Shown in pieces: positions 2,481 through 39,560 of a stretch of DNA of 64,000 nucleotides. A program made the position numbers and the translations under genes. Positions within the stretch are counted from its first letter, which is position 1. Each line of letters starts with the position of its first letter. Below the pieces are notes generated by a model, which did not search any database, had not been told where the DNA came from, and saw nothing but the letters and a program-made list of their open reading frames with translations. The DNA comes from Microvelia longipes (lineage: Eukaryota; Arthropoda; Insecta; Hemiptera; Veliidae), in NCBI GenBank assembly GCA_018340805.1, contig JACMZG010001911.1, positions 54,421,132 to 54,485,131 on the forward strand, in the 5' to 3' direction.

Positions 2481-3350
2481 ATGGAAGTTGGCCTAAGTCA
2501 AAGTTCAAAGCCCTTAGAACTAATACACGTTGATTTGGTCGGTCCTATGGACGAGTTATCGTTGGGTGGATCGCGATACATGCTGACAATCGTTGATGAT
2601 TATTCAAGAAAAATGTTTAATTATTTTTTAGAGTCTAAAACTCAAGTAAAGGATATTTTATATGAATTCATAATTTGGGCTAAAAATAATTTTAAACAGG
2701 CTATTAAACGGGTCAGGAGTGATAACGGTACGGAATTTAAAAACAAAAATGTGGCTGAAATGTTTAAACAATTCGGAGTGAAACATGAACTTACTTGCGT
2801 GTATAGTCCTCAAAGCAAAGGATTAGCTGAGAGGGCTAACCGTACAATTATTGAAGCAGCAAGATCTTTACTCATAGAGGCTAACCTGCCAGTCGCCTTC
2901 TGGGCTGAGGCTGCAGGAACAGCCACATATGTAAAAAACCGAACACCCTGTAGAAGTATAGACACAGTGACGCCCGAAGAAAAGTTTAGTAACAAAAAAC
3001 CTAACTTAGGACATTTGAAAATATTTGGTTGCCTGTGTTATTATTACATCCCGAAACAGTACAGGTCTAAACTTGAGTCTAAAATGAGCTCTGGTATCTT
3101 TGTGGGCTACTCTAAAAACAGGCGTGCATATAGGGTCTTTGACCCTAAGAAGAATGATGTGATTGAAAGCAGGGACGTCAAGTTTATTGAAACTAGACGT
3201 GGTGTTAATGCTGAGGAGATTAAATTTGAGAAAAATACACAATCTGATGTCAAAATTTTTATATTTAATGAAGAAAAACTTTCTAATGATATAAAAAATC
3301 CTGTGACAGCAGATCAGAAAAATGAAGATCAAAAAATTCAGCAAATTTAA
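2481..3350 (+). pseudogene. Copia B integrase catalytic core
   Basis: This is a retroviral-type integrase core. The first Asp is in LELIHVDLVGPM, the second in VRSDNGTEF, and the Glu is in KGLAERANRTI, giving a D,D,E triad of Copia spacing. The C-terminal segment IFGCLCYYYIP...GIFVGYSKNRRAYRVFDP is the typical Copia post-core domain. The frame ends at 3350 without joining RT: the polyprotein would have to change frame between 3350 and 3467. Role: strand transfer of cDNA into the genome. Confidence 0.9.
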
Positions 3351-3466
3351 ATGTAACTTACCTTGATGATCTACTTGATGAGACGTTTGAACCTGATGAT
3401 GAATCTGAGTTTGAGTGCTCTTTTAAAGCTGAATCAATTGTTTTACCTAACTCATATAATGAGGCA

Positions 3467-4078
3467 ATGAAGTGTAGAGACAAAAAACATTGGTACACTG
3501 CAATGGTAAAAGAATTGGATTCATTGAATGAGCGCGGGACTTGGAGTCTTGTTGACAAACCCTCACATTCAAATGTCATAGGTTCAAAGTGGGTTTTCAC
3601 TAAAAAGTGTATTTCAGGTAAAGATGTTTACAAAGCTAGCCTAGTGGCCCAAGGATGTGCTCAGAGATTAAATACATATACAGAGACTTATGCTCCTGTT
3701 ATAAAACCGTATTCTCTGAGATCTCTTGTGCTACTAGCTGCTTCTAATAATTGGGGCATAGCCCATTATGATGTAAAATCTGCCTATCTTTATGGCAAGC
3801 TTAAAGAAATTATTTTCATGGATCAACCCCCAGGTTTTAAAATTAAGGGTGATCATAGGGTTTGTAAATTAAACCAAGCCTTATATGGGCTTAAACAGAG
3901 TGGCCAAGTATGGCATGACACTCTTACTTCACACTTTAAAGAAAATGGCATTATGCCTCTAAAAACTGATAAATGTGTTTTTAAAAAATCAGATGGGGCT
4001 AGTTCAATAATATTGGGTGTTCACGTAGATGATTTTTTATTGTATACAGCAATGAATACGTATTATCTCAACTTATAA
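3467..4078 (+). pseudogene. Copia B reverse transcriptase, N-terminal part
   Basis: This is the RVT_2-type RT of Copia. GSKWVFTKK precedes the first catalytic motif, AHYDVKSAYLYGKL. Next come the PPGFK segment, LNQALYGLKQSGQVWH, and the active-site box HVDDFLLY, in which His replaces the usual Tyr of YVDD. A stop at 4076-4078 interrupts the protein just after the VDD box, and the rest follows in another frame. It would copy the genomic RNA into cDNA in the particle. Confidence 0.9.
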
Positions 4079-4962
4079 AAATTTTAGAAGAAAAATTCGA
4101 TATTAAAAAACTTGATAATACTGACTCAATGCTTGGACTTAAAATTTGTAAAACTAATAATGACATTTTTATAAGTCAGAAAGAATACGCTGAAAATATT
4201 GTTAAAAGATTTGGGCTAGAAGAGGCATTTGCTTCTTCTACACCTTTAGACCCGAATCAAAATCTTTATGAGTTTGAAAATTCTAAAAATGTTAATCAAC
4301 AATATTTTCAGGAAATAATTGGTAGTATAATGTATCTCTACACTCAAACCAGACCTGACTTGTCTTTTTCTGTCACACTTTTATCTAGATTTTGTAAAGA
4401 TCCACGTGAGATACATCTCACAGCAACTAAAAGAGTGCTTCGTTATGTTAAAGGCACTAGTCATTATGGACTTAAATATAAAAAAGGTGAATTTACTTTA
4501 AATTGTTTTGTAGACGCGTCTTGGAGAGATGGGAAAGGACAAGAAAAGTCAACTACTGGTTTTATGTTTTGTTTAGAGAATAATATTATTATGTGGTCTT
4601 CAAAAATACATATAGCTTTGTCAAGTTGTGATAGCGAAATTACAGCTATCAGTGAGGCAATGAGGCAAGGTATTTATGTCAAAGAGCTAATCCAAGAGCT
4701 ATTCGAAATTAAAAATTTAGCTGTAAAATATATAAGTGACAACAGAGCAGCAGTTATTCTTGGAAAAAATGGTACAACTTCAAATAAGAGTAATCATCTT
4801 ATAAGACAAGTCTCGTTTGTCCATGATAATTATGTTAATACTAAATTTGATTTAGCTCATTGCTCATCTGCAGAGCAACTAGCAGATTTTTTGACAAAAA
4901 GTCTTACTTGTCAGAAACTAAACAATTTTTTAGCTGCTATTTCTTCTATTTATAGAGGTTAA
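4079..4962 (+). pseudogene. Copia B RT C-terminus and RNase H
   Basis: The frame from about 4129 carries the RT thumb (MLGLKICKTNNDIFISQKEY, then GSIMYLYTQTRPDLSFSV) and a Copia RNase H: VDASWRDGKGQEKSTTG (first Asp), SSCDSEITAISEAMRQ (Glu) and KYISDNRAAV (Asp). It then has the degenerate NHLIRQVSFVHD box and the LTKSL end. It stops at 4960-4962. An AT-rich 200-bp stretch without coding separates it from the 3' LTR. Confidence 0.9.
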
Positions 4963-5159
4963 TTTTTTTCCCTTTCCTCTGTTATGTTTTTTTTTACATT
5001 TTTTTTAAGTAAACATTTTATTTTTAAATAAATGTTAAAATTATTATTTCTAATTAAATTTTTTATATTTATAATTTTTATCACAAAGAGTTTATGATAT
5101 ATTTTTTACTAAATTCTGAATTATTTAATTTTTTTTTAATTTAAAATTAGAGAGGCACA

Positions 5160-5328
5160 TGTTGTATAATTTAAATTGATTAAAGGCGCCATTAGTAAAT
5201 CTTATTTTTAGATATTTTATTTTTGTTATTGCCTACACCGTGAGTGTAACCTTTTTTACTGTTATGTTTTAAAAAATTAAAAAATGCGTTCTGGTTAAAA
5301 TTTTTATTCTTTTTTATCAACCCCATCA
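5160..5328 (+). repeat. 3' LTR of Copia element B
   Basis: The 169-bp copy of the 921-1081 repeat has a few point changes and one short insertion, and is followed by CATCT at 5329-5333. A short purine stretch (AGAGAGGCA, 5150-5158) lies just upstream where a polypurine tract is expected. Confidence 0.93.
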
Positions 5329-5600
5329 CATCTCCATTTGCTAGGCTCTGCAGATTTTGGGCTTTTAGGTAAATACCTACTTTGAATTTCCAGATGGGAT
5401 AGTCGTCTACCGAGTTTAATTTTTCAATTTGGGATAAATCGTTGTCTTCCATCATTACTAAACGAAATCCCGTTTTTACACACTTTTTACTAAAGTTACT
5501 TTTTACTTTTAACAGACCGGTTCTTTTTTTCGTTTTTTTTTTATTTTTAATTATTATTTTTAATTTTAATTTTGCCTGCTGGGCCCATAACCTGTTTTTA
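5329..5600 (-). mobile_element. Copia element A, 5' leader, primer site and gag N-terminus
   Basis: The minus-strand gag start at 5455 (MEDNDLSQIEKL) gives a typical Copia gag N-terminus with the YPIWKFKVGIYLKAQ segment. Upstream on the same strand, at about 5580-5595, is GGTTATGGGCCCAGC, complementary to the anticodon arm of insect initiator Met tRNA, the half-tRNA primer site known for Copia. The 5' LTR should begin beside it, at about 5595, and extend right. I cannot place its other end, because a Gypsy fragment starts by about 5700. The gag frame is cut at 5333 by insertion of element B and resumes at 915. Confidence 0.8.
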
Positions 5601-5726
5601 TAATTAATTAAATAGAAAAAGAAAGCAAGAAGAACGCATTTTTTTAGAACGAAAAAACATCTGTTTTATTAATTTATAACGCGCAGTGTAGCCAACTTGA
5701 TCGTAATAATGAAAATTACTTCTGAC

Positions 5727-6026
5727 TTAATAAAGAGTTGCTGACTCATTTGCAACAATATTATTTATAATCAAATCTAAATATAATGTCTCACTTACAG
5801 CATCCTGCTCTGTCTCAACAGCATTTACAGTTTGCCTTCTAGACTGTTGTTTAGATAAACACATGTTCGCCCAATGATGTTTTCCAGAACATTTATGGCA
5901 TGTATTATTATACGCTGGACATTTGCGGATAGGATGAGAAGTGCCACATCTTCCACAGGTTCTTTGGGATTTGCTACTGCTATTTAATCTTTTGTTAACA
6001 GCATCTACATTAACAGTGTTTTCCAT
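5727..6026 (-). pseudogene. Gypsy gag C-terminal part with two zinc knuckles
   Basis: Minus-strand frame with two CCHC knuckles in tandem, CGRCGTSHPIRKCPA and CHKCSGKHHWANMC, as in Ty3/Gypsy gags of the K02A2.6-like type found in insects. The frame ends soon after (about 5727), before any protease motif, next to where the LTR of Copia A should lie, so the element is truncated there. It continues the gag at 6036-6632 with a small frame break around 6030. Confidence 0.75.
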
Positions 6027-6035
6027 CGACTGGAC

Positions 6036-6632
6036 TTACGCATGAGCAGCCTCAGCTTGCTGGCCTATACTAATTAGCTGATCTAAAGATAATTTAGGTT
6101 CTCTTAAAACCTTTACTTCTAAAGCTATATCTTTCAATCCCAGTATAATTTTATCTTTGACATTTCTTTCAGCAGCAATCCCAAACTCACATTCTTGAGC
6201 TTGAACTTTTACCTTAGCTACAAAATCATCAAAACTATCCTCATTTTGATTAATATTCCAGAAGACGTAAGACGCATACGTCAAATTCTTATAATTTTTA
6301 AAATGCTTATCAAAGGCATCTAAAACTTCTCTTAGAGATAGATATATAGTTTTCTTAACTTCATTTCCTGCTTTGTCTTTGCCCAATACTTCTTTAGATT
6401 TAGGTAAATTAAATGATTTGAACAATGTTTTTAGATCTTGCCCACAAACCTGTAAAAACAGTGAAACTTGTACATCGTTATCTTCTTTATGATATTTTAA
6501 TGCTTTTAAATAACATACAAAATCTTCTTTCCAGTTATTCCAAGATTCCGCTGGGTTTGATCCCGATTTAAAAGGTGCAACAGGTGATAAAGACAATGCC
6601 ATTTCGGATTGACAACTTACAAATATCAACAA
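6036..6632 (-). pseudogene. Gypsy gag N-terminal and capsid part
   Basis: A 198-aa minus-strand frame. The likely true start is the internal Met at about 6602 (MALSLSPVAPFKSG), because upstream residues look like leader. The sequence NPAESWNNWKEDFVCYLKA and the helical region up to DQLISIGQQAEAAHA match the capsid-like gag of Ty3/Gypsy elements. It is followed directly by the zinc-knuckle frame and preceded by a primer binding site at 6701-6714. Protease and pol are missing. Confidence 0.75.
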
Positions 6633-6700
6633 AACTTATAAGACCGAACTCACAAAATTCTGATTGCTACGTTCAAATTTAATATATATATAAGTCTGTT

Positions 6701-6714
6701 TTAACCTGGCACCA
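6701..6714 (-). other. Primer binding site and LTR edge of the Gypsy fragment
   Basis: On the minus strand TGGTGCCAGGTTAA follows a CA dinucleotide (LTR end at 6715). It begins with the TGG complementary to a tRNA CCA end and lies about 110 bp upstream of the likely gag start. The LTR would extend right from 6715; I could not find its other boundary or a second copy. Confidence 0.6.
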
Positions 6715-6719
6715 TGTTA

Positions 6720-8390
6720 AATATATAAAACAAAGTACTTTTTAAGTAGTTATAATTAATAACAAAAACATCGAGTCGTTGTTGTTTGTTTCGTATTTAA
6801 TGTCCATAACTGAATAAGAGGACTCTTATTGTTTTAGTGAATAATATTGTTTTTATTTTTCTTTGTTGAAGTATTGTTAACTTTTCTTATGGTAGAGGTG
6901 TGGACTTCTGTTGTCGCTTCTTGAATTTTCTTCTGATATGTGCTGTGCTTCTTTGCTGATTTCCTATTGCTGAGGTGGCAAAGTCGATATGAATGGAAGT
7001 TAGAATGAATTTAAATTTGGTTAATCTTTGTATTGTACATATTTCTTTTTCTTTCACTTTTTTAATTTATTCAAATATTGGTATGCTTATTTTTTATATT
7101 TAGTTTGGTTTTGCTTTGACCTATGATTTCATTGGTAATAATAAAGTAACAAAATGTAAGATAAGCAGAAGGAAGAGAAGAAAAAAAAATTAACTAAAAA
7201 CAATACAAAGGTACTGTACTACAAAAATACAAATTAACTAAAAAAAAATACTAAAAAATACAAAGGAAAAAAGTTATTAAGAAACTAGTTAAAGTCCTTT
7301 ATTTTGTTTTATTTTTTAAATTTTTGATGATGAGTTTATCTGTTTGGTTTTGACATATGAAAGTAATAAAAAAAAAAATTAAAAAAAAAACCAAAAGGGG
7401 TTTTAACAATTAATTATTGATAGAGATAACTCTATCTTTGTGACAGATTGTCATTAAAAATTATTATTAGAAGAAAAAAAATTAAATAAATAAAGGAAAA
7501 TTAAGTTTATAGAGTGCTTTTATGTTTCTAACTTTGTTTAAAATATAATGAAATTAGGGTCTTTCACCGCCAAGCCAGGTTTATGCTGCCTTGCACAACT
7601 AGCATTTCTTGGTCCTAAAAGCTAAGGTTTATGCACAACTATTTACAATTTTATATTTATATTATTTACAATTACGCTAGTTTGGTAGTATACAAATGCT
7701 ATAGTGCTGTATATATTATATAAAGTGCCAGGTGCGCCAATGAATATGCGCACACATAGGAACATGAACCCTCACATTGAATGCCCGCGAGTGAATGCAC
7801 AACATGCAGACACATACACTTTTTCATATTTTAACTAATGTATGCAGTGATACTCACACTGCATATGCGTTCATACACATACACCTACTCTCACAATACA
7901 TATTTATGTGCATACAGGTACACACACACCTACATGCACACTCATGCATCTCGCGCATATACACCTACAGACTCACACACACACACTTGCATTCTCACAT
8001 GTGTTTTCACTTAAATAACATCCACTTACTTACACCAAATCATGCATGGAAACAACTAGTTGCACACTCACACACAATATATACATGTCTATCTGTATAC
8101 CATTACTTCTAGTGTATGTAATGGCTTTTTTTTATATTTTTTATTTTTAAAAAGGATCAGTTAACAAGATTGTTTTGTTTTTTAATTTTTTCTCTCATAC
8201 GAGGGTCTTTTGTATTTTAAGCAATTTAGCTTTTTAAGAAAATAATATTTTTTTTTTAGAAAAATAAGGGAAAAAGGCTGTTATCTCAAGCAATTCAAAA
8301 GCTTTTTTTAAAAAAAAAAAAAAAACTTAAATTAAAAAAATTATTTTAAAGAATATTAATTATTTGTTTATTTATCCTAGACTTTGTTTT
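6720..8390. other. AT-rich intergenic stretch with no supported gene
   Basis: The first part may include the Gypsy LTR (from 6715). The rest is A/T-rich with poly-A and poly-T runs. A CA-rich, microsatellite-like stretch lies at 7750-8100. The 105-aa frame at 7795-8112 is a by-product of that CA repeat (His/Thr-rich), and I do not call it a gene. Confidence 0.7.
7750..8100. repeat. Degenerate CA/CACATA-rich simple repeat
   Basis: Strong excess of CACA, ACATA and CTCACAC words over 350 bp, without a clean period. Confidence 0.65.
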
Positions 8391-8394
8391 AAGG

Positions 8395-9638
8395 TTATAA
8401 ATCGAAGTCATCAGTCAGTGCAGCAAGCGCTGTTAAAAAGTCAATATTTGTGATGCATTTATTTATGGCTTGGCCTGGGTTTAGTGCCAAGTTAACTTGA
8501 TATTTATCATTGATCTCTTTCCGTGCCTTTCGGTTGTATGGACAATTTGCTATTATGTGTTCCATATCTTGGACTTCATTAAGTTGACATTTTTTGCAGT
8601 ACGGGTCAGACTCAATCTTCATTATAAATTTGAATTTTTGGTGCTTTCCGTGCCCAGTTAGTATTCTATTTATTCTGGTGGTTATGTGCTTTGGCAATGT
8701 AACATTTTGAAACCATGGCTTAGTATTAATTTGTTTTAGAATTGAGTGTAGCCATAGCCCTTTTTGCTTAGATATATTGAGATCATAGTATTCCTGCCAC
8801 TGCTTGATGGCTTTAATATTAAAGTAATTGTTTGTTTCCTGGAGTGGTATTTGAACGTTGCTGGTTACCTCTAATGTAGTTGCTCTCTTGGCAGCTCTGT
8901 CAACCAGTTCATTCCCTTCCATTCCAACATGAGCTGGTATCCATAGCACACTTACAAGGATGTTTACCTTTTGTAACTTTAATATTTCTTTGAGTATGGT
9001 GTCTACCGTGTGGTTGTTGTGGTAGCAATCGGATGTACTAGTGCTTTTTAATATTTCGACTGAAGATTTAGAATCCGTAAAGATTACTATGTTCTTGTTT
9101 CTAAGGTTGAGTTTTGATTTTCTAGTATGGTTTGAGCTATGGCTGTGAGCTCTGCTGTGAATACCGATACATATTTGGGCAATTTTAGTAGTTTGGGCTG
9201 GGAGCTGTTTATCATGAAGGCGCAGCCTACCCCGTCCTGAGTGAAGGACCCATCACTATAGGCATGGATGAATTTGCTTTTCGGGTATTCCGTAGCGATA
9301 TATTGACTTGCAGTTTGTTTGATTTCCAGTGGGTTCAGATCAGCCTTTTTGATGCCGGGTATATCTGCTTTAAAAAGATTTGTGTAATTGCAGCTCGGAC
9401 CGCTTATATAAACCTGCCTTAGGTTGATTGCTACATTCTGTAGATTGTCAATTATTTCCTCCACCATGTTTTGTAGAAGTTTGTATTTCTTACGCCGCCC
9501 AGAGCTATGCGAATTGTCCAAAAAGGGGTTGATTAACTTGGAAATAATTCTGTCCGTGTTTATTAGTTTTGTTAGGAATCTTCCTGCCATATTTAATATT
9601 CTTGGTTTTATGGGGGTGATGTTTGCCAACAGGTGCAT
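8395..9638 (-). pseudogene. LINE ORF2: RNase H domain and C-terminus
   Basis: The frame 9638-9087 carries YSDGSFTQDGVGCAF (first Asp) and SVFTAELTAIAQ (Glu). After a shift near 9110 the strand reads IFTDSKSSVEIL (Asp) and continues without a break into 8949-8395, which holds WIPAHVGMEGNELVDRAAK (last Asp). A C-terminal tail follows with a Cys/His set (CKKCQLNEVQDMEHIIANC) like the zinc-binding end of I-clade and related ORF2 proteins. The stop is at 8395-8397. Confidence 0.9.
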
Positions 9639-31179: not shown

Positions 31180-31490
31180 ACATGAATGAGTGAACCATCA
31201 ATGAGACGAGCAATAATTAACCAAGGGAAGGTCTATATGGAGTGGTCTTTATGCCGTGTTAAGGACTACGTCGTGGTATCACGCTGTTACAGATGCCAAG
31301 AATTTCATCACGTCGCTTAAGATTGTAAATTACCACAAGGTAAATCTGTTTGTGTTTACTGCAGTGGAGAGCACGATATAAGTACCTGCCCTAACCTAAA
31401 TAAAACTCCACAGTGCAAAAATTGTAAAAAGTCAGGTAAACCTTCAGAGCATAAAGCCAGTGACTATAACACGGCATTGTTAAGCTTGTA
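31180..31490 (+). pseudogene. Zinc-knuckle ORF1 remnant
   Basis: Reads VEWSLC-type then CYRCQEFHHVA, a stop, and continues with CVYCSGEHDISTC and CKNCKKSGKPSEHKASDY: three knuckles as in ORF1 of R1/Jockey-like LINEs (W.LCRV.DYV.V.RCYRC pattern just upstream). No RT is attached. Frame 31180 onward, with one stop in the first knuckle. Confidence 0.6.
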
Positions 31491-31527
31491 TTGAGTTGAA
31501 CACAAACATATTTGAAGGATGAGATAT

Positions 31528-32290
31528 CCTGAGTTGGATAAACAACTCAGGGTCGAGATAACATCCACAGATCTTCTAATAAACTTTCTTTTAGCCTTAA
31601 AGCCTGTAAATAATGCGTAGTTATGTCAGTGTGAATGAGTGTGAGTGAAACCCATGAATTTAACATGTCTAAATAGATTATGCTTCTATGAGATAACATC
31701 CACAGATGTTTTAATAAACATGTTCTTTTAGCCTTGAAAGCCTGTAAATGAATGAGTAGTTATGTCAGTGTGAATGAGTGTGAGTGAAAACCGTTAATTT
31801 AACATGTCTAATTAGATTATGCTTCAATGAGCACACGCGCCGATAGGATTGGTCTTCTGGAAGGGGTTACCACCCTTGGCTATATAAGCTAGCTCTTGAG
31901 ACCAATCGTGAAGTAGTAACAATTCAGTAATGAGGCAGTCATTAAGAGTATTTTGAACAGTAATCAAAGATTCATTAAATAGTAAGGCTTCAGTAAACAA
32001 TCAGTAAAGTATTAGCTTGAGATTTGGTGTGACTTAAGATGCTCCTCTCCTTTATCGTCGCAGCGACCTGTAAGTAATTATTTGTCCTATAGTAGAGTTT
32101 AACGTTTGTATGTGCATAGTAGTATTGAGTAACTTAGGAAACTGACTCATCTTACCTAGACCTGTTAAGCATACCTACTATTATACTAATTATTTTAATA
32201 CAACGTATAAATATATATGTCAACTTAGTTTTATCAATAAACGTATAAACTCTGAATGCTACTTATGTTTTCTGATTAACACCCTGATAT
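31528..32290 (+). promoter_or_regulatory. LTR-like promoter region with duplicated segment and TATA box
   Basis: A hairpin (CCTGAGTTG/CAACTCAGG, 31528-31551) precedes a tandem duplication of about 137 bp (31555-31689 and 31690-31828). This is followed by a TATA box (TATATAAG, 31881-31888) and a poly(A) signal AATAAA at 32236-32241. The order U3-like repeats, TATA, leader, AATAAA within 750 bp is that of an LTR, possibly solo. I could not find a second copy or target duplication. Confidence 0.5.
31555..31828. repeat. Two tandem copies of a ~137-bp segment
   Basis: Both start GAGATAACATCCACAGAT and include GTCAGTGTGAATGAGTGTGA and AACATGTCTAA, with scattered changes. They lie directly upstream of the TATA box, where duplicated enhancer-like segments are common in LTRs. 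Confidence 0.9.
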
Positions 32291-32584
32291 CTTTCACACT
32301 TAATTAGGCCAGGATTCCTAATCAAAGGAATCCCCTTTTTCTGTGGGGTTCCGGACTGGCCATCCGGTGTGAGTTCATCCAAAGCCCCACGGTTAAAGTG
32401 ACAGAATATTTTATTGCTATGAAAATGCGTTGCAACTTGAGTTATGAGTAAAAGATTAAACTTTCTTAAATCCCGCTTTTTCCGGACACAGTATCCTAGC
32501 CCTAGCAAAGCTCAGGCTAAGGATACTGTGTCCGGCCATTTTCTTCCGCCCGTCCGGGTGTAAGATTCTTTTACATATAGAAAG

Positions 32585-33040
32585 CCTTATCTTAATAAGG
32601 AAAGACTTTCAGAGCCTAATATAGATATTTGTTTAAACTCAATAAATAACTTTTTAACTAATAATGAGACAGTTAAATGTAGAACATCATTTATTTATGA
32701 CTTCACGCAATATACAGATATTAATATAAGTTTTACTACAGGATCCAAAAAATCCTTTCGATTATCGAAAGGATTGTCTAAAACTCTTGTTAACAGTTAT
32801 GTATGTCAACAGCAGTTTCTAGCGTGAATTTCTCTGAATCTACTAGAGCTGACTATGAAATTTATGGAAAAGATATGAATCTCTTTGACAATAAACTTAA
32901 AAAATTTATTTGGGAAAATAAAAACAAATACAGAATGGGTTTTAGTCTAGAAGAAAATGGCAAATATGTCCATTTTAATAAGTAAGTAAACAAATTTATG
33001 ACCACCGAAAGATATATCTTAGTAACAAATGACACAAGTT
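32585..33040 (+). pseudogene. N-terminal region of the helicase protein (two frames)
   Basis: From about 32585 to 32825 one frame lacks stops (KPYLNKERLSEPNIDICLNS onward). A shift near 32820 moves to the frame with NFSESTRADYEIYGKDMN and ENGKYVHFNK, and another near 33000 leads through ERYILVTNDTS into the helicase. The YILVTND stretch is what commonly precedes the helicase core in alphavirus-supergroup replicases. No start codon is evident. No known domain recognised before the helicase. Confidence 0.45.
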
Positions 33041-33041
33041 A

Positions 33042-34034
33042 ATGTTAGACGGGGAATTAATATCTAAAATATGTAACATCAATATAATTGGTAACAAATA
33101 TGCTAGTATAAAGCGGATTGATGGAGTGCCAGGTTGTGGCAAAACTAGATTTATCCTACGAGAACATAACCTTGACAAGGACTTGGTCCTAACTCAAACT
33201 AGAGCCAATCTAAAAGAAATTCGACAATCAGTAACTAAACACTCTAACAAAAGCAATTGGAAAAGAATAAAAAAAGACTACCGGACAGTTTCATCCTTTA
33301 TCATAAACGGGTCAGATAAAAGATTTGAAAAAGTTTTTATAGATGAAGCTGCGCTAATGCACGCAGGTTATGTAGGCTTTATAAGCATACTTACAAACGC
33401 TAAAGAAATCATTTTGATTGGAGACTCTAATCCAATTCCTTTTATTAAGAGATCCTCTCTCACTTGTAATTGGTCAAATATTTCTCTTTTATGTAGTCCT
33501 ACGATAACTCTGACTACTACGAATAGATGCCCAGCAGACGTGTGCCACCTCCTTTCAACATACTACAAAGATATCAAGACAAATAGTACCACTATAACTT
33601 CTATCAAGCCAACTATCGCTGACGGTCAGTTTCATCAACTTAAAGAAGAAACTCTTATACTGACATACACTCAAGCAGAGAAAAATATGGTAGTGAGATG
33701 TCTCGAAAATAAATGTTCTCAACCTATACTAATTCACACCATTCATGAGGCTCAAGGTATGACTTCTAAAAGAGTTGTCCTAATTAGGATAACCACTCAA
33801 CATCTTGATATATATAATAGTATACTCCATACAATATTGGCAATAAGTAGACACACCCACAGCTTCAGCAACTTGACCACAGGTGAACCAGACTTAATAA
33901 GCATACTTATTAACAGAACCATTTCCCAGAGTAAGGATGTTTATGATAATTTCAAAACGCCTAATACAGACCAAATTGTTTACTCTTTAATTGAAGGTCA
34001 ACTAAATATGAACTATAGTAAATATGGCGAGTAA
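33042..34034 (+). CDS. RNA-virus-type superfamily 1 helicase
   Basis: A 330-aa open frame with the ordered motifs of viral SF1 helicases (Viral_helicase1): GVPGCGKT (Walker A, about residues 29-36), VFIDEAALMH (Walker B), LIGDSNPIPF (motif III; Asn-Pro replaces the usual Gln), TTNRCPADV (motif IV), IHTIHEAQGMT (motif V) and LAISRHTHS (motif VI). It would be a nucleic-acid-stimulated NTPase. The frame is uninterrupted for 1 kb, unlike its neighbours. Its stop overlaps by 11 bases an ATG (34024) opening toward a LINE-type endonuclease. So it is either ORF1 of an unusual non-LTR element or an endogenous viral insertion. The start at 33042 is probably internal. Confidence 0.85.
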   Translation: MLDGELISKICNINIIGNKYASIKRIDGVPGCGKTRFILREHNLDKDLVLTQTRANLKEIRQSVTKHSNKSNWKRIKKDYRTVSSFIINGSDKRFEKVFIDEAALMHAGYVGFISILTNAKEIILIGDSNPIPFIKRSSLTCNWSNISLLCSPTITLTTTNRCPADVCHLLSTYYKDIKTNSTTITSIKPTIADGQFHQLKEETLILTYTQAEKNMVVRCLENKCSQPILIHTIHEAQGMTSKRVVLIRITTQHLDIYNSILHTILAISRHTHSFSNLTTGEPDLISILINRTISQSKDVYDNFKTPNTDQIVYSLIEGQLNMNYSKYGE

Positions 34035-35452
34035 TAATCAACTAATAAATGACGACTTACTAAATAACGATATCGTTATACTCACGAAATCGATGACTAC
34101 AAACTATCTAAAGTCAAAAATAAAGTAAATTCCTCTTTCAGTTTAAATATTCTTCATTTTAATATCAGAAGCCTTAAAAAACATTTTGACAAACTCCAAG
34201 TAATTGTCCAAAACCTTGATATTAGTACTCAATAGTACTCATATAATTGTCACAACCGAAATATGGCTCAAACAATTTCCTGATCATCTCAAATTAGACG
34301 GCTACTCAGAATATGCAATAATAATATGTATAATAGATGTGATGGCATAGTCGCAATCATAAAAAATGATATTAATATAATTAAATATAAATTAAAACCC
34401 ATAGAACATTGCAATAGTCTGTACTTCAATATAAATATAGTAAGACAATTTTTAACGTAACCCTTATATACAGACCATGGGACTGTGATTTAGATAAATT
34501 TATTATTTCTCTTCACAATTACCTCAATAATAATGATAATGATAATCATATAATTCATGGTGACCTAAGTATTGATTTTCTTAATCCCAAAAAAGACTTA
34601 AAATGCGAGTTATATAAATCTACTTTAGCCAATTTTGGCTTTGAATCCTACATAAATACTTATACGAGAATTGAAAGAAATAGTAAATCTTGCCTAGATC
34701 ATATTTGGTTTAAAGGAAATAGTTATCTTAAACCACAGTCTTACAAACTTAATAATAAAATTACCGATCATAATTCAGTTGGTTTAGTTATTAATTTAAA
34801 AAATGTTAACCTAAATATAAAACCTGAGACGGTAACTAAACAGGCTAGGAATAACTTTAACATATACGAGGAGGTTAAAGACTTAGAATGGGAGGACGTT
34901 ATGGCTGTAGAAGATGTCGACAAAGCTCTGCAGCTGCTTACTAACAAAATATAAACTTGCATTAATAATAATACTGAAACTGTCCAAAGCAAAATTAAAA
35001 AGAGATTCATTAAAAGGAAACCTTGGATTACTCAAGTTTTGATTTAATGCATGCATAAAAGAGACAAACTTGCTAACAAGTTGTCAAAAACTCCTAATTA
35101 TAGTATATTAGCAATTAAATCTAGAAATAAAGTTACTGATTTAATTAAATATTATAAAAACAAATTTTTTGCTGACCAAATAAAAGACGCAGGGAACGAT
35201 AATTGTATAATATGGGGAATATTAAATGAGACACTAGGTAGAAAAAGAAAACAAACTTTGATCCCTGAATTAAAAACGGCTGACGGTAAATCTAGTAACA
35301 ATGACATTGAAATAGCAGAAACTCTTAACAAGCACTTCTCTTCTGTAGGTGAAACATTAGCATTAGAGGAGACCAAGTACAGTAATTGCAGTAAAGAACA
35401 AAACACTACTTCTATAACTCCTAATCCTCATTCTATTTTTTTATTTTTGTGA
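34024..35452 (+). pseudogene. Non-LTR retrotransposon ORF2, EEP endonuclease and linker (CR1-like)
   Basis: The ATG at 34024 overlaps the helicase stop. After a shift near 34100 the strand reads LNILHFNIRSLKKHFDKL (endonuclease Asn motif), TTEIWLKQF (Glu), IHGDLSIDFL (GDFN box with Ser for Asn), CLDHIWFK and ITDHNSVGL (SDH-like). The linker follows, including the frame 35051-35452 (MHKRDKLANKLSKTP, YYKNKFFADQI, LNKHFSSVGETL) as in CR1/L2-type ORF2. It stops at 35452 where RT should begin; Penelope sequence follows. Multiple stops and shifts are present. Confidence 0.75.
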
Positions 35453-35674
35453 TTATTGGTCTCCATAATAGATTGGTCTCCATAAAAATCATAAGGATAT
35501 TATAATATGCAAAGCAGATAAAGCTAAGATTACAGTAATCATGGATAGAGAGCAATATAAAAATAATATGCTACATATGCTTAATGACCCGGGCACTTAT
35601 GAAAAAGTTGAAAGCACCAGCGAAGAATTAATAACCCAAGTAAAGAAAGAGTATGATTTTTATCATATGATCGT

Positions 35675-36343
35675 ATGAGTTTTATCTCCAAAATTGAAAA
35701 AATCAACCTTAATATCAATAGTTGTAGATTAGGAAGAATATATGGCCTTCCTAAAACTCATAAGGAGGGTAATAGTCTTCGACCCATTGTAGATGGAACT
35801 AACTCCCCATCATATAAACTCTCTAAATACCTTAATCCTAGTTTGGATAAACTCAATAATAACAATCCTTATGATTGCGGTAGTGTTTTCAATTTTAGAA
35901 ATGTAATTAAACCATTCAAATTACAAAAAGATGAGGTTATTGTATCATTTGATGTCAAATCATTGTTTACGAATGTTCCCTTAGATGAACTGATTAATTT
36001 GATAAGAAATAATTGGGATCAGATAGAAACTGAAACTAAAATAAAATGCATTGATACTTACCTGGATTGCATTAAATTTTGCTGCAACAACCCCTATTTT
36101 ACAAGTGATAATGTAATATACAAGCAAATAGATGGTCTACCTATGGGAGGTAGCATGTCTGTCAACCTCAGTGGTATTTTTGTTAACCATGTCCTCTCAA
36201 AAATTTTAAACAAAACAAGGTATAAACCACGCCTTGTATGTAAATACATTGATGGTTTATTCTTAATAATCAAAGCCAGACATGGAGTTCTTAAGAATGA
36301 ACTCAATAGTTTCACCCAAAATTTGAATTTACGGTTGAATTAG
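35675..36343 (+). pseudogene. Penelope-like reverse transcriptase
   Basis: 222-aa frame with the Penelope RT signature: GRIYGLPKTHKEG, LRPIVDGTNSPSY, VSFDVKSLFTNVPLDELI (first catalytic Asp), YKQIDGLPMGGSMSV (QxDGxxMGSPxSP-type box) and CKYIDGLF, the YVDD box read as YIDG, so the second catalytic Asp is Gly. The C-terminal part continues after a break at 36343 in the frame beginning 36403. Confidence 0.88.
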
Positions 36344-36402
36344 AAAAAAACAATCAATTGACTTTCTGACGTAACTATAATCAAACATCTAATGGAGAAT
36401 TA

Positions 36403-37158
36403 TTGACAAAATGGACCAATAAAATAGTCAAAGGAAATAGGTTTCTAAATTATAAGTCGAACCACCCTTATAAACAGATTGAAAACACAGCTTATAATTT
36501 CATCAAAAGAGCAGTAGACTTAACAGATGATAATTTAATGGCAGAAGTTAGGACTAATGTGTATAAAAAACTTATAGACAACTTCTATCCTTTGAGGCTT
36601 ATAAAGCAATTATGGCATAAGGCTATTAATAATAAAAATGTCAACAACCATGTCAATAATAATTCTACAATAGCTCCTTCTAACACCACTAAACCAATAT
36701 ACTCTGGACTTACATATGTGAAAGGACTATCACACTCAATCAGTAGAGTTTTCAGGAAATTCGATTGTCCAGAAGTGAAATTTGGTTTGAAACCAGTCAA
36801 TAAAATCGGACAAAGTTTTTTCACACCTCTTAAAGATAAAGTAAGCCAAGAAGATACAATGGGATTTATTTATAAAATACCATGCTCTGATTGTGATGGA
36901 AAGTATGTTGGAGAATCAAGACAGACATGGACAAATAGAAAAAAACAACATAAAGCTAATATTAATTCAAAATCCAAAAAGACTAGGTGGACTGCATTTT
37001 CCACCCATACTAAAACCTTAGGCCATAACTTTAATTTTAGTGATGTCAGTATAATAGACTATGAAAGTAACAACTATAAAAGGTTACTACTAGAAGCATT
37101 TCATATTTCTCAAGAGCATAACAATGTTAATTTCAAAACTGACTCTAAGAGATTTTAA
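36403..37158 (+). CDS. Penelope-like C-terminal domain with GIY-YIG endonuclease
   Basis: 251-aa frame. The first part (KWTNKIVKGNRFLNYKSNHP, then NFIKRAVDLTDD) is the Penelope thumb and linker. GIY-YIG nuclease follows: GFIYKIPCSDCDGKYVGES (paired Tyr motifs with the CxxC insert typical of PLEs), QTWTNRKKQHKANI (catalytic Arg and His), STHTKTLGHNFNF, and the Glu in LLLEAFHISQ. The domain looks intact. Start at 36403 is internal to the original protein. It would nick target DNA for insertion. Confidence 0.9.
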   Translation: MTKWTNKIVKGNRFLNYKSNHPYKQIENTAYNFIKRAVDLTDDNLMAEVRTNVYKKLIDNFYPLRLIKQLWHKAINNKNVNNHVNNNSTIAPSNTTKPIYSGLTYVKGLSHSISRVFRKFDCPEVKFGLKPVNKIGQSFFTPLKDKVSQEDTMGFIYKIPCSDCDGKYVGESRQTWTNRKKQHKANINSKSKKTRWTAFSTHTKTLGHNFNFSDVSIIDYESNNYKRLLLEAFHISQEHNNVNFKTDSKRF

Positions 37159-37275
37159 TAAGTATTAATGCAGGCATTATTCATAATCTTAGCTAATTTG
37201 GTGTTTCTTCTATCCTTGAATTTTATTAATTATTTTGGTATTTATAATTTCGTTGTAGTTAATTAATTTTTAACC

Positions 37276-37607
37276 TTTTTTTTTTTTTTTTTTTTTTTTT
37301 TTTGCAAAATTTTTCTTGCGGGAAAAATGTTACCAAAAAAGAGAGAGAAATGCATTTACGCACGAAGACAGCGGTCTGTCAACAGTGTTGGACTCAGGGT
37401 CTGCCTCATACCAACTAAAACTCACTCCGCGAACCCCTTAAACCTAGCCTGGAATCGTTATTCACATTACTTCAGGCTAGGTCTTATCTTGAGCCTTCCG
37501 GCTCCCTCCCATGTTACCCCCCTATGTCTCCTTTTGTCAGAGCTTTAATGTGGGTCTAGACGTTGCAAAAAAATCTGCAACGCCTAGAACCAACCTCAAA
37601 ACCTGAC

Positions 37608-37653
<46 letters not shown>
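37276..37653. mobile_element. Candidate SINE-like insert bounded by poly-T (28) and poly-A (45)
   Basis: A run of 28 T (37276-37303) and a run of 45 A (37609-37653) enclose about 305 bp of higher-GC sequence. It has two hairpins: CCTAGCCTG/CAGGCTAGG near 37444-37480 and CGTTGCA/TGCAACG near 37560-37582. Nothing in it codes convincingly. The outward-facing tails suggest either a plus-strand retrotransposed RNA ending at the poly-A, or two 3' tails meeting. I could not identify A and B boxes of a tRNA-derived SINE. Confidence 0.45.
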
Positions 37654-37654
<1 letters not shown>

Positions 37655-38395
37655 CGGAACACGGTCTTAAACTGTTTAATAAATGGCTGCACTCCAAAAA
37701 AACCAAATTTATAACTTTCTCCCATAGTAAATCAGGTCAACCAAATTCCATTAGTCACATAAAAAGTCATGATTGTAAGTGTAGTTTAAATCAAAATTCC
37801 AAACAATGTAACTGCCACTCAATTGAAAAAGTAGAATATATAAAATATTTCGGAAACATCATATAGATTCATTATGTAAGAAATAAAGAAAATATTTTTA
37901 CTACTTTAGATGTATAAGACAAATTTGCAACATAAATGTGATGAGACAAGTATACTATGCACAAGTAAAGTCTATACTCAACTCAGCTACTATTGCTTGG
38001 GGTTCTGCTTACCCGTCAAACTTAGCTCCTCTTGAAATTGCACAAAAAGCTATCATTAAAATTATCCTTAAAAACCAATACTATATCCTACAGAGGATTT
38101 ATTTAAAAATTTTCCTGTCTTTAACTTATCTCAATTATTTAAAAAATCAGTTTTATTATACTATTTTAAGAATGACAAATAATATATTGACCGTAATTAT
38201 CAAACAAGAAGTAAAACAAATAAAAAAGTAGCTATTTGTACTTGCAATAGTAACCTTCTACAGAGACATGCCAGTATGGTAGCACTTAATTTATTCAATT
38301 CCTTACCAGATCACATAAGAAATATTGATGATCTAAAATACTACAAGTTCAAATCTGAAATTAAGAACTGGTTAACTATTTCATAAATTTTCTTT
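37655..38395 (+). pseudogene. CR1-like LINE RT C-terminal end
   Basis: Reads LFNKWLHSKKTKFITF, CKCSLNQNSKQCNCHSIEKV, YIKYFGNIID, then (frame 37938-38231) MRQVYYAQVKSILNSATIAW, GSAYPSNLAPLEIAQKAIIK: the thumb and C-terminal end of CR1-type ORF2. A further frame ends with NSLPDHIRNI-type residues at 38300-38385. It may be the 3' part of the element whose endonuclease lies at 34024-35452; the RT core between them is absent. 3' sequence runs to about 38737 and ends in AATAAATAAATAA. Confidence 0.65.
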
Positions 38396-38740: not shown

Positions 38741-38838
38741 CTGCACAGTAGAGGCACTGTTCGACACCCTTAATAAACTAAACAATGTATTAAATAATTT
38801 GAAAAAATTGGTGTAATGAACATTGTCTATAGATCAAT

Positions 38839-39560
38839 ATGAAAAAGAGTTCTTACCTTATTTTAGGTAACAATAAATTAGTTCAATCAACAAACTCTTT
38901 AACGCTGCCCTCATTAAGTATTGACCACGTATGCCTTCAACAGGTAGATAAGTTAAAACTTTTGGGTATTTGGATTGATTCGTCCCTCAGTTGGAAAGAT
39001 CAAGTTGCACATGTAAGTGCTAAGGTATTCGCAAGTCTGGCTCAAATAAGAAAATTGTTGTGTTCTCTCCCACTATCACAAAAGAAAAACCACTGATCAT
39101 ACCACACATGGACTATGCTTCTGCTGCTTACTGCGATATTAATTCTACCAACACACTAAAACTACAAAGAGCACAGAACGCATGCATCAGGTATGTTTGT
39201 GGTATTCCTTTTGCTGATCAAGTCACACCCTACTATAAAAACTAGAGTGGCTCAAAATAAAAGAACGGTTAGAACTAAGCATTGCTAGAACAACGTATAG
39301 GATTTTTGAAAGCAATAAGCCATTATATTTGTACAACCGATATAAGTGGAGAAAAGATGTAGTAAGTAGATCAACAAGAAGTGTCATATTAGACCTGCTT
39401 CATGTTCCCTCGCACACAACAATTCAGAATGATAATTCCTTTCTTGTTCAGTCGGTAAAACTCTTTAGCACCTTAGAACCAAAGTTTTACACTAAAATGT
39501 CTTATAGTAGTTTTAAAATTAATTATAAAAAAATATTTACTAGGTACCAATAATATGCTA
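38839..39560 (+). pseudogene. Second LINE RT C-terminal end (CR1/L2-like)
   Basis: Frames 38839-39096, 39060-39245 and 39329-39553 join as one C-terminal RT region: LKLLGIWIDSSLSWKDQV (the LG..ID..L.W..H box), IIPHMDYASAAYCDIN, LQRAQNACIRYVCGI, RLELSIARTTYRIFE and a final VKLFSTLEPKFY. This is a different family from the one ending at 38395. Everything upstream of the thumb is missing, as usual for 5'-truncated LINE insertions. Confidence 0.75.

Follow-up and report, generated by a model that had tools for sequence, protein, structure and literature searches.

A virus-type SF1 helicase encoded between gag and endonuclease-reverse transcriptase in a probable three-ORF LINE of Microvelia longipes

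The 64,000-nucleotide stretch of Microvelia longipes DNA described here (contig JACMZG010001911.1, forward-strand positions 54,421,132 to 54,485,131, assembly GCA_018340805.1; hereafter the window, in whose numbering features are given) lies inside a 665-Mb genome (G000), the source of all copy counts below. It holds what is probably a dead copy of a multi-copy long interspersed nuclear element (LINE) with three open reading frames (ORFs): a zinc-knuckle gag, an N-terminal domain joined to a superfamily 1 (SF1) helicase of viral origin, and an EEP endonuclease (EN) followed by a reverse transcriptase (RT). The helicase part of ORF2 is still open. Its frame (33042..34034, + strand) encodes 330 aa, residues 26-275 of which match Pfam Viral_helicase1 (PF01443) with E 5.4e-29, and it matches the tomato mosaic virus helicase with E 6.7e-31, far outside chance. 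At 34024..34034 (+) the 11-nt overlap ATGGCGAGTAA contains both the helicase stop codon (TAA, 34032-34034) and the ATG at 34024 that starts ORF3. The 5′ half of ORF3 (34024..35452, +) follows in broken frames, encoding a LINE-type EEP endonuclease and the EN-RT linker (Pfam), with 94% blastn identity to the sister copy L033 as far as 35393. The endonuclease is weak in the window itself (178-aa piece at 34418-34954, Exo_endo_phos_2 E 0.0038, under the family's curated cut-off); its open relative in L034 reaches Exo_endo_phos E 3.2e-9, over the curated cut-off. Helicase frame, 11-base overlap and downstream endonuclease had all been named in the initial annotation of this stretch and are present as described there.

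Upstream of the open frame, the start of ORF2 and its N-terminal domain (N-domain) occupy 32444..33041 (+) in broken frames, recognized by blastn to L033, relative to which about 400 bp are gone near 32787-32807. A remnant of ORF1 precedes them at 31183..31464 (+; blastn 89% to the L033 gag), spanning the end of the pre-knuckle region and the CCHC zinc knuckles. It translates to CYRCQEFHHVA*DC and CVYCSGEHDISTC, with one internal stop at 31318-31320. Comparison with L033 reveals that gag is split by a 933-bp insertion at 31465..32397, bordered by the 5-bp direct repeat GTGAC at 31460-31464 and 32398-32402. The insertion contains a TATA-like stretch and is possibly a solo long terminal repeat (LTR), which is a guess. 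Because it separates gag from the helicase, gag was invisible beside the helicase to the initial annotation, which bounded the element at 32585-35452. Those bounds are too narrow on both sides, with gag remnants already at 31183-31464 and the C-terminus of the LINE at about 37660-38386.

The arrangement recurs across the genome. Searching G000 with the helicase scored 121 of 135 candidates, so that the yields are lower bounds: at least 123 matches, or at least 72 copies once matches no more than 1.5 kb apart on the same strand are merged. The 30 best loci, whose extracted flanks span no more than about 1.5 kb, are the sample for the counts out of 30 below. The copies fall into four subfamilies named A, B, C and D in this analysis. 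The copy in the window belongs to D together with L002/L033, whose helicase protein is 90% identical to its own. Linkage was assessed with gag, N-domain and EN query pieces taken from five among these 30 loci. EN lies directly downstream of the helicase on the same strand in 28/30. Where the start of ORF3 could be located (26 loci), a stop codon overlaps it every time, as a 4-nt ATGA in the 24 copies of A, B and C and as an 11-nt overlap in the two D copies. The helicase ORF has its own stop codon and stands directly before, and overlaps, the EN-RT ORF. That the latter joins both enzymatic domains is seen in two relatives: in L034, whose ORF is broken, two consecutive frames after EN match RVT_1 (E 1.1e-9 and 6.2e-11), and L035 has one RVT_1 match with E 4.5e-19. 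The last ORF3 frame scanned in L034 contains RVT_1 only, and the helicase is not fused to the C-terminus of EN-RT. A protein search with RT gave 16 matches, none of them named.

The initial annotation had offered two explanations, capture of a replicase helicase by a LINE lineage and a chance viral insertion beside a LINE, and had suggested a genome search as the check. Many copies do keep helicase and EEP in the same order with the overlap, as the first explanation predicts. An endogenous RNA virus that landed next to a LINE by chance would account for a helicase so clearly of virus type, but not for an order and an overlap repeated in dozens of copies and four subfamilies, nor for the selection kept between subfamilies described below. 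Viral methyltransferase or RNA-dependent RNA polymerase sequence beside the helicase, which was to count against capture, was not named by Pfam in the scanned frames of L031, L034 and L035, the copies whose flanks were scanned for these domains. The probability of a chance insertion is accordingly very small. Smaller still is that of a Helentron-type rolling-circle element. Helentrons combine a helicase with an EEP endonuclease, and the present element likewise contains both. Pfam nevertheless assigns the helicase to Viral_helicase1 and lists neither a Pif1-type helicase nor a Rep domain for L031 ORF2 and its 19 protein relatives, and the element has a LINE reverse transcriptase after EN and gag knuckles upstream.

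The position of the helicase within the element is indicated by what precedes it. Upstream of the helicase, 21/30 loci have a gag ORF in the same orientation, and in 15/30, spanning all four subfamilies, gag ends in ...YG..stop and shares its last 11 or 14 nt with the start of the helicase ORF. Zinc-knuckle motifs are found upstream in 18/30 loci, including 13 of the 15 with the overlap. These findings do not support the helicase as the first ORF. The initial annotation had seen it as ORF1 in place of the usual RNA-binding protein, and SF1 helicases (SF1H) in ORF1 are described in the accessible text of PMC5563155; in the window, the 933-bp insertion splits gag off and makes the helicase look first. 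Given the gag stop codons that run into helicase starts in 15 of 30 copies, the ORF1 assignment retains only a slight probability.

Several observations weigh against the three-ORF reading. No copy with listed frames keeps all three ORFs open. Gag was not found in 9/30 loci, many of which are cut off by their flanks of about 1.5 kb; the N-domain was not found in 3/30, nor EN in 2/30 (L024, L026). Some decayed copies have, ahead of the ORF3 ATG, a frame that does not run on from the helicase. The search pattern for gag stops itself demanded the ...YG...stop ending, and the count of 15/30 thus carries no information on how frequent other endings are. To these are added the near-saturation of the selection estimates, the isolation of the protein relatives and the borderline call for the N-domain, each given with its data below.

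Endonucleases lacking a helicase had been named as evidence that would speak against a single element. An EN search of G000 scored 121 of 1202 candidates, with linkage defined as a helicase match upstream, on the same strand and within 3.5 kb. Among these best-scored candidates, a helicase lies upstream of 52/61 EN copies of at least 49% identity, 2/10 of 39-48% and 0/30 below 39%. Of the nine unlinked copies in the first class, two were opened: L038 retains decayed helicase remnants, and L037 is cut with about 74 bp of the end of the helicase ORF remaining. The other seven, judged from the match table, have EN matches that begin no earlier than query residue 31, consistent with a missing 5′ part. 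The eight unlinked copies at 39-48% comprise L036, L054, four in L051/L052, the 5′-truncated copy L053 and C1361:9323339, which was not inspected. L051 and L052, within which L040 and L041 lie, carry their four endonucleases of window type (D-type) on inverted-repeat units. L036 represents a helicase-less relative, as does L054 on a visual reading of its translation. The intact-looking L036 element (2800-7469) has an open ORF1 of 372 aa, in which Baculo_FP domains are accompanied by a PHD match under the cut-off, and EN and RT in one open ORF of 993 aa; its ORFs do not overlap. Its endonuclease is 44-46% identical to that of the helicase-bearing LINE, whereas the stretch examined contains no gag, N-domain or helicase match. 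The EN tree does not settle whether L036 falls outside a single clade uniting family D with A-C.

Two side observations concern these loci. The inverted-repeat units (L051 3082-4308 and 5126-5848, L052 1512-2727, and others) are 97-99% alike over long stretches; the L051 unit, placed right after an LTR-type RT and integrase, carries an open EEP ORF of 302 aa (Exo_endo_phos E 2.4e-9) akin to the LINE subfamily found in the window. Next to the sister copy in L033, the reverse complement of 7007-9502 holds an open frame of 831 aa in which motifs resembling knuckles occur and which, judged by eye, is the gag-protease portion of an LTR element.

The complete ORF2 product is best seen in the copy L006/L031, where the ORF is open from ATG to stop and encodes 673 aa. 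About 650-700 aa long, it combines a conserved N-domain with a complete SF1 helicase unit, of tobamovirus type in both sequence and fold. Proteins were searched with the complete L031 ORF as query; only the 7996 candidates sharing most words with it were scored, and at least 34 matched. Nineteen of these (P0004-P0022), each 635-719 aa long, stand alone as proteins; identity to the query is 41-49% in 18 of them and 35% in P0022. They are known as proteins only, without surrounding contigs, which leaves neighboring gag and EN unconfirmed. The codon for the second residue starts with G in 15/19, as an ATGG overlap would need; an ordinary start context would give the same. Scans of viral contigs (queries A1 and A2) and of genome contigs (query A2) returned no relatives, and no match in an Rfam scan reached the gathering score.

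A helicase tree of 34 rows, which took in 8 of 15 non-family matches (not P0023, whose first helicase motif is missing, nor the six near-copies P0030-P0035) and two of three from another match list (P0003 omitted), unites 26 LINE-family helicases in one clade (99/99). P0024-P0026 form a separate clade (100/99), and five viral replicases fall outside both. Only P0025 is named among P0024-P0026, from the butterfly Euphydryas; that the three are TRAS elements is a guess. The initial annotation had called for such a tree, which delivers the single family clade and not the donor: because sampling is partial and the midpoint root lies on the long viral branch P0037, neither the viral donor nor a separate lepidopteran capture is settled. 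Elsewhere in G000, divergent helicase matches of 30-31% identity at C1361:29110338-29111201 and C565:20117323-20117862 lie in frames open for 607 and 316 aa and may mark a different helicase-bearing element. A 1883-aa open frame at one helicase match was set aside as a probable artefact, since its 9.5-kb stretch contains 3001 N.

The N-domain is linked upstream of the helicase on the same strand in 27/30 loci (tblastn E 2.7e-13 in L001). Three profiles of it were compared with a set of 18 proteins, 11 of them viral replicases. The planthopper (Laodelphax) protein P0023 matches with E 3.9e-84; P0025 and P0026 match at E 0.0032 and 0.035, P0026 improving to 1.1e-6 with a profile extended in the helicase direction; and the best value of the 11 replicases with any of the three profiles is only E 0.29. 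The Macro family is not among the Pfam matches to E 10 of 13 fragments, in a search whose filters drop weak matches, and PDB sequences give no match up to E 1. It is tentatively suggested, at somewhat less than even probability, that the N-domain is a captured viral macrodomain-like (X) domain, a call that is borderline.

Selection acts differently on lineages and on individual copies. Between subfamilies A, B and C the ratio of nonsynonymous to synonymous divergence (dN/dS) of the helicase is 0.055-0.11, values that are only rough with dS at 2.0-3.3, saturated or nearly so; in comparisons with D, dS is past saturation and dN is 0.27-0.32. Between sister copies dN/dS is 1.57 for the window and L033 (300 codons, few changes) and 1.02 for L003 and L010 of subfamily A (270 codons, few changes), the exception being L031 and L034 of subfamily B, at 0.13 with still fewer amino-acid changes. 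The helicase is therefore retained at the level of the lineage, whereas copies are freed from constraint once inserted and dead. The comparison of copies proposed by the initial annotation thus reveals constraint between lineages; the 1-kb frame is indeed open in the window, but not because of selection on this copy.

The same figures bear on whom the helicase serves. One proposal, made in the accessible text of PMC5563155 and PMC6338049, is that the same three-ORF element keeps its helicase for the host, for instance through production of viral cDNA or interference with related viruses, and a side effect of this kind is compatible with the present data. Unconstrained sister copies within constrained lineages nevertheless fit selection on the element and not on a host locus, making host service as the reason for retention improbable.

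The copy in the window is itself decayed and cannot work, with frameshifts relative to L033 and a 5′ cut at about 31183, upstream of which no 5′ end was found. Downstream of the ORF3 remnant lies a Penelope-like fragment (35455..37262, ends approximate, +) with RT and GIY-YIG endonuclease (Pfam RVT_1 E 5.3e-12; GIY-YIG E 3.9e-4, slightly under the curated score), at whose start the 14-bp motif ATTGGTCTCCATAA recurs at 17-bp spacing. By blastn only simple repeats in it match L031, L033, L034 and L035; L033 is itself disrupted shortly past the point where the fragment begins in the window. The fragment is read as an insertion into the LINE, on evidence that does not include a target-site repeat, and the idea that it forms part of a chimera was set aside for want of a match in the four comparable copies. 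A unit of about 390 bp with a poly-T start and poly-A end (37267..37655) also lies within the interrupted LINE. The C-terminal part of ORF3 from the same kind of LINE resumes in broken frames at about 37660..38386 (+; blastn 67-71% to L034, L035 and L031 over parts), and no RT core of the LINE is seen between 35452 and 37660. Just downstream, pieces at 38833-39553 resemble, by eye, the C-terminal part of another LINE.

LINEs with virus-type helicases have been described in two settings. Morozov et al. (2017; PMC5563155) reported, in the text accessible, SF1H-encoding Jockey-like LINEs in Hemiptera and Orthoptera, present in dozens of copies, with the helicase ORF adjacent to or overlapping the EN-RT ORF (by 2 nt in Nilaparvata). 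The central surprise of the initial annotation, a helicase ORF overlapping EN-RT, is thus already in print. The present element shares this layout, and its N-domain profile matches the planthopper protein P0023; it probably belongs to the same family, judged by description and not by the sequences or RT clade of that family. It differs in having gag before and an N-domain within the helicase ORF, where the accessible text of PMC5563155 has a single-domain ORF1. Lazareva et al. (2015; PMC4686597, accessible text) described SF1H-encoding TRAS/R1 LINEs of Lepidoptera, which likewise captured a virus-type SF1 helicase but carry it as the C-terminal domain of ORF2, in contrast to the separate ORF before EN-RT seen here. 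Compared with the tobamovirus or virga-like replicase helicase, the present one is retrotransposon-encoded, with no methyltransferase or polymerase named alongside it in the scanned frames. No report of the three-ORF gag-helicase-EN/RT layout, the double overlap, the N-domain or its macrodomain version was found in the literature searched, which included few subscription papers, no bioRxiv preprints and no supplements, and the 2017 paper in part.

The anatomy suggests how such an element could be expressed. All three ORFs would lie on one mRNA. Ribosomes that terminate on one ORF would reinitiate at the overlapping ATG/stop site to translate the next, first ORF2 and then ORF3; reinitiation is mentioned for LINE second ORFs in the accessible text of PMC5563155. 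The helicase would most likely act on duplexes of the element's own RNA. By analogy, it may unwind or sequester duplex RNA and so blunt silencing by small interfering RNAs, a role that falls a little short of an even chance and is favored because the Plutella LINE helicase domain gave weak silencing suppression (PMC5563155 and PMC4686597, accessible text). The main alternative, help with RNA unwinding during target-primed reverse transcription, is less likely. Equally doubtful is the more specific proposal that a LINE took a two-domain replicase piece (macrodomain-like X domain plus helicase) as a coupled middle gene and kept it across many hosts as a counter-defence module. If true, it would describe a three-gene retrotransposon with a viral protein for RNA processing, anti-silencing and possibly ADP-ribose-related functions.

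The LINE described here indicates that a module from a viral replicase can settle stably in a retrotransposon as a gene of its own without displacing gag. Its 19 full-length relatives and genome copies provide a defined protein family in which to ask what a LINE gains from a viral helicase, and the double start-stop overlap leads to the prediction that an animal retrotransposon couples the translation of its three ORFs.
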